A DNA stretch of 64,000 nt from Haloferax elongans ATCC BAA-1513 (GTDB taxonomy: Archaea > Halobacteriota > Halobacteria > Halobacteriales > Haloferacaceae), in contig NZ_AOLK01000021.1 of assembly GCF_000336755.1 (NCBI RefSeq), positions 126,253 to 190,252 of the forward strand, read 5' to 3'. Within the stretch, counting starts at the first letter, position 1; every line of letters starts with the position of its first letter. This document shows positions 290-6,062 of the stretch, one piece after another. The notes beneath the pieces are model-generated. The model ran no database searches. It had not been told where the DNA came from and worked only from the letters and a program-made list of their open reading frames with translations. The position numbers and the translations under genes are program-made.

Positions 290-1396
290 ATGGGTATCGC
301 CGAAACATACTCCCGGGGCAGGGAGTTCGCAATCGAGCGTCCGTTCGCACTCGTGCTCGGAGTCATCGCAGCGTACCTGCTGGGTGACCTCCTGCTCGGG
401 CTCGCAACTGGGCAGACGCAGTTCGCCGACATCGGCTCGCTCGCCTGGGACGGACTGATGCGCGGGCTCGTAATTGGCCTCGCAGGCATCGGCCTGTCAA
501 TGACGTACAGTATCTTGAACTTCGCAAACTTCTCGCACGGTGACTACATCACCGCCGGCGCGTTCTCCGGGTGGTCGACTACGTACCTCCTCGCGGGACT
601 CGGCCGCGCCGACATTGGTGCGCTGATGTTGGTCGGTGCGGGGGGTTCCGTCTACGGCGGCACGCTCGGCATCGGCATGCTGTCGACGCCGCTCGCAGTC
701 ATCGCTGGCATCGTCGTCGCCGGAGGATTCACCATCCTCCTCTCGCTGGCGGTCGACCGTACCATTTTCAAGCCGATTCGTGACGAGGGTGGCATCACGC
801 TCCTCATCACGAGTATCGGTGTCGCGTTCGCACTCCGGTACCTGATGCAGTTCGTCTTCGGGTCTGACGTGCGTGGCACGACTGCACAACCGCCGTCTGT
901 CGGCCTGTACCTCGTCGACGGGACGGTATTCATCGACGCACACGACATCACGCTCCTCGTCATCGCGTCGGGCCTGATGCTGGGCGTTCACTTGCTGCTC
1001 CAGCGGACGAAGCTCGGCAAGGCGATGCGCGCGATGGCTGACAACGAAGACCTGGCCCGCATCACTGGCATCCCGACCGAACGGGTCGTCCGTTCCACGT
1101 GGATTATCGGTGGCGGTCTCACGGGTATCGCGGGATACATGTTCATCCTCTGGAAGGGGACCCTCGGCTTCAACGACGGGTGGCTGCTGCTGCTGCTCAT
1201 CTTCGCAGCGGTCATCCTCGGCGGTATCGGGTCCATCTACGGGGCAATCACTGGCGGCCTCGTCATCGGCCTGACCGCGTCGATGTCGGTCCTCTGGATT
1301 CCGTCGGCGTTCGCACGGGCCGCAGCGTTCGTCGTGATGATTGTCATCTTGCTCGTGAAACCGTCTGGTCTCTTTAGTGGGAGGTCGACGGCATGA
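290..1396 (+). CDS. livH: Branched-chain amino acid ABC transporter permease, LivH type
   Basis: This 368-residue multi-spanning inner-membrane permease is one of the two channel subunits of a hydrophobic amino acid (HAAT/LivFGHMK) importer. Family signatures are the early GLAGIGLSMTYSILNFANFSHGDY segment of the first half, and the cytoplasmic coupling loop with AMRAMADNEDLARITGIP that contacts the ATPases. About eight hydrophobic helices are visible, and the final GGIGSIYGAITGGLVIG helix is characteristic. It is slightly longer than bacterial LivH because of a glycine-rich extracellular loop near residues 110-130. It opens a tightly packed operon, and its TGA overlaps the ATG of livM. The transported substrate cannot be read from the sequence. 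Confidence 0.88.
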   Translation: MGIAETYSRGREFAIERPFALVLGVIAAYLLGDLLLGLATGQTQFADIGSLAWDGLMRGLVIGLAGIGLSMTYSILNFANFSHGDYITAGAFSGWSTTYLLAGLGRADIGALMLVGAGGSVYGGTLGIGMLSTPLAVIAGIVVAGGFTILLSLAVDRTIFKPIRDEGGITLLITSIGVAFALRYLMQFVFGSDVRGTTAQPPSVGLYLVDGTVFIDAHDITLLVIASGLMLGVHLLLQRTKLGKAMRAMADNEDLARITGIPTERVVRSTWIIGGGLTGIAGYMFILWKGTLGFNDGWLLLLLIFAAVILGGIGSIYGAITGGLVIGLTASMSVLWIPSAFARAAAFVVMIVILLVKPSGLFSGRSTA

Positions 1397-2772
1397 GTGT
1401 CCGCGACGACATCGCTGCCCGTATGCCGGGTGGCGACGCGGGACTTATCCTTGCCGTGCTCGCGACGGCGTACCTCCTGTACGTGCTCGCGGGCGTCGTG
1501 CTTGGCTACGACCTTCGCGGACAACTGAACTCCCTCGCGACGCTGACGTTCTACATCGGCGTGTTCGCGATGCTGTCGCTCGCGCTCAACCTCCACTGGG
1601 GGTACACGGGGCTGTTCAACATCGGCATCGTCGGCTTCATGGCCGTCGGTGTGTACGTGATGGCACTTGTCTCCAAGCCGACGTTCGTCGCCGGTGGTGC
1701 CGCACAGGTCGGGGGCCTCGGCCTTCCGCTCTGGGTCGGCATCATTGCCGGGATGGTCGCCGCTGCAGTCCTCGGATTCGTGGTGGCGCTCCCGGCGCTT
1801 CGGTTGCGGGCCGACTATCTGGCCATCGTGACTATTGCGATGTCAGAAATCGTCCGGTTCAGCTTCCTCTCGGGTGACCTGCAACAGTTCCAACTCTTTG
1901 GGTCGAAAGTCGGATTCGGTGGCGGGTCGGGGCTCATCCTCGACTTCGTGCCGCCGCTCGAAGCGCTGTTCCAGTCTGTGGGCCTGTGGGGCGTCTACCT
2001 CGGCTTCGTGGACGCGACGAAGGTTATCGTTCCGACGAACCCGAAGCCGGTCGTCGACGGCCTCGTCTACGGCCTGCTGCTCCTCACGTTCGTCACGGTG
2101 TTCTTCTGGCTGCTCAAGCGTACCGGCGAGTCTCCCTTCGGCCGCGTGCTGAAGGCCATCCGCGAGGACGAAGACGTCGCCAACGCGCTCGGGAAGGACA
2201 CCGACCGCTTCAAAATCAAGTCGTTCATGCTCGGGTGTGCGCTGATGGGCCTCGCCGGTATCCTCTGGCTGATGCCGCAGGGTGCCGTGACGCCGAACTT
2301 CTTCCGCCCGCGCGTGACGTTCTTCGTCTGGATCGCGCTCATCATCGGCGGTGCCGGGTCGAACACCGGCAGCGTGCTCGGTGGCGCGACGTTCGCGGCT
2401 CTCCTCTACCAGGGACCGCGGTACTTCCAGAACCTCGTGACGACGGTGCTTCCCAACCTCGACTCCCCACCGGGATTCGGGCAGGCGATCGGACCGCTCA
2501 TCTCGCAACTCGACCCCGTCCCGTTCCTGCTGTACACCATCGACAGTATCCGCCAACTCCAGTTGGTGGTGATGGGTCTCGTCCTCATCTGGCTGATGCA
2601 CAACCGGCCAGAGGGACTTCTCGGCCACCGCAAGGAGACGGCGTCGGTCATCTCGCTGTCGCGTCCCAAAGCGGCTGCTGCAGCCACTGACGGCGGCTCG
2701 GCCGATGGTGACGTCCAGACTGACGGCGGCGTCGATGTCGCCGACAACAACGGAGGTGTTGACGATGAGTGA
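1393..2772 (+). CDS. livM: Branched-chain amino acid ABC transporter permease, LivM type
   Basis: This 459-residue protein is the second permease subunit of the importer. Its N-terminal half has the LALNLHWGYTGLFNIGIVGFMAVG motif. A coupling loop (GRVLKAIREDEDVANALGKD) precedes the last helices, and an IIGGAGSNTGSVLGG helix follows. A soluble tail of about 60 residues rich in Ala, Gly and Asp extends beyond the usual family end and is probably a disordered haloarchaeal extension. The start overlaps livH by 4 nt (ATGA) and the end overlaps livG, which indicates translational coupling. It should pair with LivH to form the membrane pore. Confidence 0.88.
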   Translation: MSVRDDIAARMPGGDAGLILAVLATAYLLYVLAGVVLGYDLRGQLNSLATLTFYIGVFAMLSLALNLHWGYTGLFNIGIVGFMAVGVYVMALVSKPTFVAGGAAQVGGLGLPLWVGIIAGMVAAAVLGFVVALPALRLRADYLAIVTIAMSEIVRFSFLSGDLQQFQLFGSKVGFGGGSGLILDFVPPLEALFQSVGLWGVYLGFVDATKVIVPTNPKPVVDGLVYGLLLLTFVTVFFWLLKRTGESPFGRVLKAIREDEDVANALGKDTDRFKIKSFMLGCALMGLAGILWLMPQGAVTPNFFRPRVTFFVWIALIIGGAGSNTGSVLGGATFAALLYQGPRYFQNLVTTVLPNLDSPPGFGQAIGPLISQLDPVPFLLYTIDSIRQLQLVVMGLVLIWLMHNRPEGLLGHRKETASVISLSRPKAAAAATDGGSADGDVQTDGGVDVADNNGGVDDE

Positions 2773-3625
2773 TGCAAGCCAACCCGTCGATGATGTCGCA
2801 ACCAAGGTCGACGAAGGCGCACTAGGCTCCTTCGCGTCCGGCGTCCAGACCACCGAAGAGTACCCGCTACGTGTCGAAGGACTCCGCAAGTCGTTCGGCG
2901 GTATCACCGCCGTCGACGGCGCGACCTTCCAAGTCGAATCCGGGTCGCTCACTGGACTTATCGGCCCCAACGGTGCCGGGAAGTCCACGACGTTCAACCT
3001 CATCACCGGGATGATAAAACCCGACGCGGGGACCGTCACGTTCAACGGTGAGGACATCACCGGACTCGACCCACACGAGGTCGCAAACCGCGGGATGGTT
3101 CGGACGTTCCAAATTGCTCGCGAACTGAGCGAGATGACCGTCCTCGAAAACATGATGCTCGCCCCGCAACGCCAGCGCGGCGAAGAACTCTGGCGGTCCG
3201 TCCTTCCGGGCGTCCGAAACGACGTGCGCGAGCAAGAAGAAGAACTGCTCGAACGCGTCTGGGAAGTCCTCGACTTCTTCGACATCGACCACATCGCCGA
3301 GGAGTACGCTGGAAACCTCTCCGGTGGCCAGCGGAAACTGCTGGAGATGGCACGGGCGCTCCTCACGGACCCGGACATGCTGCTCCTCGACGAACCGTTC
3401 GCCGGCGTCAACCCGACGCTGGAGAAGAAACTCCTCGAACACATCCACGAACTCCGTGAACAGGGCTACACCTTCCTGCTCGTCGAACACGACATGGACC
3501 TCATCATGAACAACTGTGAACACGTCATCGTCCTTCACCAGGGACGGGTGCTCACCGAAGGCACCCCCGACGACATTCGGAGCAACGAAGAGGTCATCGA
3601 AGCGTACCTCGGAGGGAACGTATGA
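2765..3625 (+). CDS. livG: Branched-chain amino acid ABC transporter ATP-binding protein, LivG type
   Basis: ABC ATPase of 286 residues. Walker A is GPNGAGKST (residues 67-75), the signature is LSGGQ (185-189), Walker B is MLLLDEP (205-211) and the switch His is H242 (LVEHDMD). The long insertion between the Q-loop and signature (about 130-180) and the GMVRTFQIARE segment are typical of LivG rather than LivF. The ATG at 2765 overlaps the livM stop. An earlier in-frame Met exists but would lie deep inside livM. The N-terminal 35 residues before the nucleotide-binding domain are acidic and poorly conserved. It energises uptake together with LivF. Confidence 0.9.
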   Translation: MSDASQPVDDVATKVDEGALGSFASGVQTTEEYPLRVEGLRKSFGGITAVDGATFQVESGSLTGLIGPNGAGKSTTFNLITGMIKPDAGTVTFNGEDITGLDPHEVANRGMVRTFQIARELSEMTVLENMMLAPQRQRGEELWRSVLPGVRNDVREQEEELLERVWEVLDFFDIDHIAEEYAGNLSGGQRKLLEMARALLTDPDMLLLDEPFAGVNPTLEKKLLEHIHELREQGYTFLLVEHDMDLIMNNCEHVIVLHQGRVLTEGTPDDIRSNEEVIEAYLGGNV

Positions 3626-4383
3626 GCGTCGACGCGAACCGCAACGCAACGAGCGGCGCTGGTATCGAAGACCGAAGCGACGTGCTCCTCCGCGTCCGCG
3701 GCCTCGACGCCGGCTACGGCGACCTGCAAATCCTCACTGACGTCGACATGGACGTCTTCGACGGGGAGTACGTGACCATCGTCGGACCCAACGGGGCTGG
3801 CAAGTCGACGACGATGAAGTCTGTCTTCGGGCTGACTGCTCTCATGGGCGGCGATATTCAGTTCAAAGACGAGGACATCACCGGTCGCAAACCGGAAAAT
3901 ATCATCCACGTCGGCGTCGGCTATGTCCCGCAGAACGACAACATCTTCTCGGCCCTGACGGTCGAAGAGAACCTCGAAATGGGTGCGTACATCCTCGACG
4001 ATGTTCCGCAAGACGCGATTCGAGCGGTGTACGACCGCTTCCCCATCCTCGAAGAGCGCAAGCACCAGAAAGCTGGCACCATGTCCGGCGGGCAGCAGCA
4101 GATGCTCGCAATGGGTCGCGCGCTGATGCTCGACCCCGACTTGCTCCTCCTCGATGAGCCATCGGCGGGTCTCGCACCCGACCTCGTCGAGGAGATGTTC
4201 GACAAAATCGACGAGATTAACGAGGCGGGGACGGCCATCCTGATGGTCGAACAGAACGCAAAAGAGGCGCTTCGACGCTGTGACCGCGGCTACGTCCTCG
4301 CGAACGGACAAAACCGCTACATGGACACGGGGACGGCACTCCTCGAAGACGAACAGGTCCGACAGGACTTCCTCGGCGGATAA
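3622..4383 (+). CDS. livF: Branched-chain amino acid ABC transporter ATP-binding protein, LivF type
   Basis: ABC ATPase of 253 residues with Walker A GPNGAGKST (55-63), signature MSGGQ (154-158), Walker B LLLLDEP (174-180) and the LivF-type AGLAPDLVEEMF segment. It is the last gene of the livHMGF operon and overlaps livG by 4 nt. A run of six T at about 4408-4413, just past the stop, is a plausible terminator. LivF forms the ATPase pair with LivG. The binding protein that should feed this transporter is encoded just downstream on the opposite strand. Confidence 0.9.
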   Translation: MSVDANRNATSGAGIEDRSDVLLRVRGLDAGYGDLQILTDVDMDVFDGEYVTIVGPNGAGKSTTMKSVFGLTALMGGDIQFKDEDITGRKPENIIHVGVGYVPQNDNIFSALTVEENLEMGAYILDDVPQDAIRAVYDRFPILEERKHQKAGTMSGGQQQMLAMGRALMLDPDLLLLDEPSAGLAPDLVEEMFDKIDEINEAGTAILMVEQNAKEALRRCDRGYVLANGQNRYMDTGTALLEDEQVRQDFLGG

Positions 4384-4704: not shown

Positions 4705-6018
4705 TTAGTTGTCCGGGCCGGACAGCGCCGTCTCGATGACCGAAGAGTACGACGACTCGCCGATGTTGAACGCGACTTGGTTGTAGACCTCTCCGTCGAA
4801 CTGGTCGCTGAAGACGTTCGAGAAGCGCTCGGAGAGCTGCTGGCCGTAGTCGTTGTTGACGAACAGCGTCGACACCGTGCTGACTTCGAGGCGTTCGGCC
4901 ATGACCTGCGCCATGACGCGCCCCTGCAGGAAGTCCGACGGTGCCGTCCGGAAGATGAAGTCGTTGTCTTCGAGGTTCGAGACGGACAGTGCCGTCGAGG
5001 ACGGTGAGCAACCGACGACTTCGTTCGGAATGAACGCCTGCTGTGAGACAGGGACGTTCACACCGGAGGACGCCGACCCACACACCGAGGGGACACCCGC
5101 GGAGACGAGCGACTGCGCGGCGGAGACACCAGCGTCCGGGGACGTTTGGGTGTCTTCGATTTGCGCGTTGACCGAGATTCCCGCCGGGTTGGCCTCGTTG
5201 ACCTGCTTGACCGGAATCTGTGCCGCCTGAATCATCGGCTGACCGACTGCTGCGAGGTCACCGGTCTCCGGCAGGAGAATCCCAACCGAAATCTCACGGT
5301 CGGAGCCACCGGGACCGCTGTCCGCCATCGGGCCAGCGCCGTCAGGGTTCTCGCCCGCGAAGCTCTGCTTGTCGACGCCGGTCGTCGCGTTGTTCTCGGC
5401 GTCGAACTCCCAGATGGAGTAGGCTGCCTCTGCCGGGTCGCCCTTCTCGTCGAAGTTGACAGAGGAGGACGCACCCTCGTAGCTGATGTCGTCGCCGTTT
5501 GCGGCCGCTTCCATCCCCTCGATGAGGTTGTCTGGGCCGACTGTCATTCCGCCGGGATTGGCCATCCGGCGCATCTGGTCTTTGACCGCCGGACCGGAGT
5601 TCTCACCGGCTGCGGCGTTCGCCAGTAGCTGCACTGCGACGGAGTCGTAACACTGCGACGTGAAGACGCCGGGTGCTGCTCCGTACTCGTCTTGGAACAA
5701 CTGGTTGAACGTCTCTTGGTTCGGACCACCTGCCGCCGGTGCCGTCCCGGTCACGTTCTCCATGTCGTTACCGACCTGTCCGGGCATCGAACCCGAGCGC
5801 AGGCCGTCAGGAACGAGAATTTCTTCGCTCCCGTCGGAGGCGCTGTAGTAGTCGCGGAACAGTTGGATACCACTCTCGGGGTACCCAATGACGACGAGCC
5901 CATCTGGGCCGCCGCCTCCGCCGCCGCCACCGATACATCCGGATAATCCTGTCAAGCCTGCCGCTCCCGCGGCTCCCACTCCCTTGAGGAAGTCGCGGCG
6001 TACGATATCACGTACCAT
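4705..6018 (-). CDS. LivK-type substrate-binding lipoprotein with circularly permuted lobes
   Basis: This 437-residue Tat-exported lipoprotein (RR at 7-8, lipobox LSGC with Cys28, then a poly-Gly linker) should capture the substrate for livHMGF. The order of its halves is reversed. Residues 38-238 are the usual C-terminal half: GLVVIGYPESGIQLFRDYY, then ILVPDGLRSG, FTSQCYDSVAVQLLANAAAG and VNFDEKGDPAEAAY. Residues 239-437 are the usual N-terminal half: ISVGILLPETGDLAAVGQ, then DTQTSPDAGVSAAQSLVSAG, FRTAPSDFLQG and VNNDYGQQLSERF, ending SVIETALSGPDN at a TAA. A Gly/Pro-rich segment (about 222-238) joins the old termini. The start is the ATG at 6018 because TTTATAAA at 6042-6049 puts transcription initiation there. 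The ATG at 6030 would precede the mRNA. The family is clear; retained function is inference. Confidence 0.85.
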   Translation of the reverse strand: MVRDIVRRDFLKGVGAAGAAGLTGLSGCIGGGGGGGGPDGLVVIGYPESGIQLFRDYYSASDGSEEILVPDGLRSGSMPGQVGNDMENVTGTAPAAGGPNQETFNQLFQDEYGAAPGVFTSQCYDSVAVQLLANAAAGENSGPAVKDQMRRMANPGGMTVGPDNLIEGMEAAANGDDISYEGASSSVNFDEKGDPAEAAYSIWEFDAENNATTGVDKQSFAGENPDGAGPMADSGPGGSDREISVGILLPETGDLAAVGQPMIQAAQIPVKQVNEANPAGISVNAQIEDTQTSPDAGVSAAQSLVSAGVPSVCGSASSGVNVPVSQQAFIPNEVVGCSPSSTALSVSNLEDNDFIFRTAPSDFLQGRVMAQVMAERLEVSTVSTLFVNNDYGQQLSERFSNVFSDQFDGEVYNQVAFNIGESSYSSVIETALSGPDN

Positions 6019-6030
6019 GTGAATTGCCAT

Positions 6031-6062
6031 GGTGAGAGTGGTTTATAAATTTAACTCTCACC
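6031..6062 (-). promoter_or_regulatory. TATA box of the binding-protein gene inside a 9-bp inverted repeat
   Basis: TTTATAAA at 6042-6049 is centred about 27 nt before the chosen ATG at 6018, which fits leaderless transcription. It is bracketed by GGTGAGAGT (6031-6039) and its exact reverse complement ACTCTCACC (6054-6062). A dimeric repressor bound there would block TBP access. The repeat is seen directly; the operator role is inferred. Confidence 0.5.

Follow-up and report, generated by a model that had tools for sequence, protein, structure and literature searches.

The window analysed here, a 64,000-nucleotide stretch of Haloferax elongans ATCC BAA-1513 DNA, encodes a LivK-type substrate-binding lipoprotein (SBP) in which the sequence blocks of the family stand in an unfamiliar order, and the locus raises the question of whether this chain is a genuine circular permutant and, if so, by what route and how many times such proteins arose. 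The first-pass annotation, made from the sequence alone, had proposed circular permutation; the order of the profile matches, unpermuted relatives, the order of predicted secondary-structure elements and conservation all agree with that proposal.

Order of the halves in a LivK-type lipoprotein

A minus-strand reading frame is open across 4705-6030 (441 aa), in line with the uninterrupted frame first described. Because Met5 (at 6018) is invariant across an 18-member orthologue alignment and a TATA-like element (tttataaa, 6042-6049, minus strand) lies ~27 bases upstream of it, the real gene is likely 4705-6018 (437 aa), extendable to 6030; this spacing is suggestive of a leaderless start. All parts of the protein are encoded on the minus strand. 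The Tat signal (RRDFLK) and lipobox, of which Cys28 is the last residue, occupy 5935-6018 (Pfam TAT_signal, E=1.7e-4, bits slightly below the cut-off) and are followed by a Gly-rich stretch (residues 29-36, 5911-5934) that separates the lipobox from the fold and varies in length between orthologues. The original C-terminal half now comes first (C block, residues 37-208, 5395-5910; PF13458 190-312 and alignment with collinear relatives), then a linker (residues 209-241, 5296-5394) that bridges the former C- and N-termini, starting in what was the C-terminal tail strand and finishing in a spacer-like stretch, GGSDR, and lastly the original N-terminal half (N block, residues 242-437, 4708-5295; PF13458 1-186). 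The residue numbers given at first pass for Cys28, the C block (from 37) and the N block (at 242) proved correct.

Both halves of the LivK/HAAT profile PF13458 are thus present, in reversed order and with no collinear alignment, as the first-pass annotation had anticipated for a Pfam search. Scanned whole, the protein matches best over profile positions 1-186 at residues 246-435 (numbered on the 441-aa form); scanned singly, the first half matches 190-312 and the second half 1-186. The unpermuted relatives that the same annotation had sought exist in other haloarchaea, and in one of them (L064, Halorientalis salina) PF13458 2-312 is matched as a single stretch; the paralogues within the H. elongans genome itself are also collinear. 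In half-against-half alignments, like halves match strongly (C/C z=72, N/N z=64) and unlike halves do not (z=1.3 and -0.4), and the alignment score rises twofold, from 537 to 1055, once the two blocks are returned to their original order. Because its halves are reversed, the window SBP is a permuted derivative of the LivK/HAAT family and not a canonical member.

Comparison of chain ends locates the cut. Collinear chains run through SYTSRLDNATADDPDILIVIGYP and terminate soon after DTIxFEA, whereas permuted chains start at (G/T/V)PDxLxVIGYP, pass TxxFEG, enter the linker and the old N-terminus, and terminate ~12 residues after SYTS. On the structural models, the opening of the chain would fall in a loop of lobe 2, flanked by the helix that ends in IETAL and the strand PDGLVVIGY. 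AlphaFold2, run with 40 permuted relatives, models the permuted protein confidently, linker included (pLDDT 85.6, pTM 0.82; a collinear relative reached pLDDT 87.9), and the two models contain the same C-block and N-block elements with the blocks swapped. In sequential Foldseek comparisons, the collinear model matches LivK (3td9) over 385 columns with a TM of 0.88, whereas the permuted model matches it over only ~190 columns with a TM of at most 0.52, a short match that is expected of a permutation. The permuted SBP is hence predicted to fold as a normal two-lobed type I binding protein. The SPSST, GYP and DG motifs, drawn from both blocks and aligned with the pocket regions of LivK, are conserved and may bind an amino acid.

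The gene stands tail to tail with a cluster of cognate importer genes (290-4383, plus strand): a livH-type permease (290-1396; Pfam BPD_transp_2, with an NCBIfam UrtB/LivH match below cut-off), a livM-type permease (1393-2772; Pfam, NCBIfam), a livG-type ATPase (2705-3625, whose start codon may lie further in) and a livF-type ATPase (3622-4383), the last being the direct convergent neighbour. From this placement we infer that the SBP is the ligand-binding component of the neighbouring LivHMGF importer of the HAAT type, whose ligand class is probably amino acids. The same tail-to-tail arrangement of SBP and livF-G-M-H accompanies permuted and collinear SBPs alike in most of the loci examined, so the two forms would appear to serve the same importer family.

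Occurrence and conservation in Halobacteria

The swapped form is present in 15 of 15 Haloferax genomes, with the same block order and 87-100% identity, and in 171 of the 391 Halobacteria genomes sampled. This count comprises full-length or equivalently strong permuted matches to the window protein (E <= 1e-75) and includes three genomes with the doubly permuted form described below; collinear genes reach only ~1e-66, because their match splits in two, and the E-values fall into two clearly separated classes. Collinear relatives occur in ~180 genomes of the sample and both forms in ~50, figures that are approximate since a few weak entries are half-matches to permuted genes. Outside Halobacteria, the phylum-wide and plasmid matches listed, a limited sampling with few bacteria, looked collinear. 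The first-pass annotation had called such a protein unusual; the swapped order is no local oddity but is standard in Haloferax and widespread in Halobacteria.

This distribution also bears on whether the halves were wrongly joined during assembly or annotation. Misassembly is excluded because the same order recurs in every Haloferax genome (15 species) and in many other genera, and with full-length identities of 47-100% across ~170 genomes from several families, the chance of any such artefact is negligible. A reading of the gene as a degenerate copy that no longer yields a functional binding protein is very improbable: a related gene in one genome (G078) has been broken by an insertion element, but in matched pairs both halves show dN/dS values that mostly lie at 0.02-0.2 (those of the linker are usually higher), the predicted fold is confident and the operon partner is conserved. 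The pseudogene reading was dropped on these dN/dS values, by which the permuted SBP is evidently under purifying selection in both halves.

In G078, the permuted SBP gene (L254, 7131-8509) is split by an insert of ~1.4 kb that encodes a 388-aa transposase-like protein and has inverted repeats at its edges. In Haloquadratum walsbyi J07HQW2 (L166), ~11 kb separate two permuted copies, and the stretch retrieved contains no livHMGF; one of the copies has an altered C-terminus and lies within a frame of 606 aa. In genome G013 (L029, 897-2256), a liv-type SBP paralogue of collinear order extends over two frames, probably through a frameshift.

Number of origins and route of the permutation

In an SBP tree for which the halves were aligned separately and then concatenated, the permuted proteins fall into three groups (P1, which contains the window protein, P2 and P3) with collinear proteins between them; the branches starred in this tree force three changes, and a single change is found in 0% of bootstraps. 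The tree of the LivHMGF proteins, themselves unpermuted, recovers these three groups, each next to the collinear relatives that accompany it in the SBP tree. The operon data reject a single permuted clade (p-AU 8e-48), and SBP and operon data combined reject both a single clade (p-AU 7.6e-80) and every pairwise union. Because the SBP and LivHMGF trees agree and a single clade is rejected both by the operon data and by the combination, we take it that permutation arose in parallel three or more times within this SBP family, each time at the same lobe-2 loop. One further permuted SBP (L155 and L211, genome G190) is of uncertain placement and possibly represents a fourth independent permutation.

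A competing account holds that permutation happened once, long ago, and that two of the clades then acquired the permuted SBP in their livHMGF loci by horizontal transfer, or that some lineages permuted back. The cut loop is identical in P1, P2 and P3, as this account would lead one to expect, and the SBP alone leaves it room: the AU test of all permuted proteins as one clade is borderline (p=0.05-0.09), as is P1+P3 (p=0.05-0.09), and P1+P2 is not rejected (p=0.27-0.28), although P2+P3 fares worse (p=0.03-0.04). Nevertheless, each clade sits beside the same collinear relatives in both the SBP and the operon trees, N-half and C-half trees built apart agree for P3, the rejections by operon and combined data stand against it, and on these trees three gains would need fewer changes than back-permutation. 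The linkers are also unlike one another (in P1 resembling GENPDGAGPSADSGPGGxxR, in P2 GGSGDIPQPEPAGSGSGADR and in P3 ELTDEDNAAVAEDPVGVDSF), and each prolongs the kind of C-terminal tail that is characteristic of the collinear proteins next to its clade. We therefore regard a single origin as unlikely. Two models of circular permutation are established, duplication-fusion-trimming and fission-fusion (PMC3320104). Under the latter, the halves would once have been separate genes, re-fused in the other order; the two halves taken from a related type I binding protein (RBP) do fold, and assemble again into a binding heterodimer, in vitro (PMC10601554), but stand-alone half genes are absent from the ~110 loci checked, and the lipoprotein-spacer-like end of the linker (GG..R) is a better fit to a second gene copy, making this route rather improbable. 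Duplication does occur at this locus, given tandem head-to-tail pairs of permuted SBPs beside livFGMH (L124, 4998-7813; L165, 4815-7649); a fused duplicate or half-trimmed intermediate was sought in the relatives' loci and none was found. Duplication followed by loss of the end halves is plausible, and the most likely route is a tandem duplication whose copies fused in frame and were trimmed at either end.

The same family appears to have been re-cut. In three genomes, the block order is N35-194, C1-171, a P1-type linker and N1-34 (L251, 5980-7317, in G378; L252, 5980-7314, in G386; L253, 5977-7425, in G309), in the same convergent livFGMH locus context. Retention of the P1-type linker shows their descent from proteins that were already permuted, and on the models the second cut would fall in a lobe-1 loop between alpha1 and beta2. 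These forms are nested within P1 at two places, with which the operon tree concurs, and their union as one clade is rejected (p-AU 2.3e-4); the doubly permuted form probably had two origins. No extra linker is present at the restored N-to-C junction, which counts against a simple duplication of the permuted gene, unless the linker was trimmed away.

The resulting proposal is that the Tat pathway would export the SBP and lipidated Cys28 would anchor it to the membrane, with the type I two-lobed fold kept, the chain opened in the lobe-2 loop and the old termini joined by a linker of ~30 residues. Ligand closure should work as in LivK, but the membrane tether would enter at lobe 2 rather than lobe 1, and the linker would form an added fourth lobe-crossing segment. 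Whether or how the lobes face the permease differently, as the first-pass annotation suggested, may depend on this change. The swap would have occurred in parallel at least three times at the same loop, with a second permutation at the lobe-1 loop in two P1 sublineages. Our leading conjecture for the repeated use of this loop is that it shifts the tether from lobe 1 to lobe 2. We hold with good confidence that the whole is best explained by a permuted SBP of a LivHMGF importer, with the LivK fold, produced by duplication, with parallel origins and double permutants. That the SBP of one importer was permuted at least five times (three lobe-2-loop swaps and two lobe-1-loop re-cuts), probably driven by where the tether enters, we think reasonably probable.

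Relation to known permutants and meaning

A natural circular permutant with the type I fold has been described in Treponema pallidum, Tp0684 (TpMglB-2), a 'Type Ic / Cluster Bc' ligand-binding protein (PMC4990184). Like the window SBP, Tp0684 is a lipid-anchored type I binding protein with an extra lobe-crossing segment; it is bacterial, belongs to the MglB (glucose) family and is cut in the N lobe, with its first three strands at the C-terminus (PMC4990184), whereas the window SBP is archaeal, homologous to LivK and cut in lobe 2, has collinear relatives in the same locus context and would have several origins. LivK/LivJ-type HAAT SBPs (3td9, 4gnr, 4n0q; PF13458) belong to the same family by profile and share its predicted elements and livHMGF partners, but the window SBP differs from them in the swapped order of its halves and in a tether that would sit on the opposite lobe. 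The collinear SBPs of haloarchaea, L064 for example, are ~55-60% identical per half and have the same convergent livHMGF locus, but show the normal order and no linker. DNA methyltransferases and saposin/swaposin, compared here by their description in a review, likewise provide within-family circular permutations with a duplication model, in unrelated folds (PMC3320104).

No earlier report of permuted haloarchaeal SBPs was found in the open-access literature searched. A permuted type I SBP is already known as a kind from Tp0684; the family, the cut point and the multiplicity are what differ here. As far as we know, most of the natural circular permutations described are ancient, and few of their sister forms survive. 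In Halobacteria, moderately diverged SBPs of all three kinds (collinear, permuted and doubly permuted) share one gene context, and automatic family models score the permuted ones as partial matches. Since Haloferax is genetically tractable, the tolerance, mechanism and benefit of permutation, such as a tether on lobe 1 versus lobe 2, are directly testable. If the five-fold permutation is true, these proteins would constitute a natural series of chain re-openings in one fold and one locus context.
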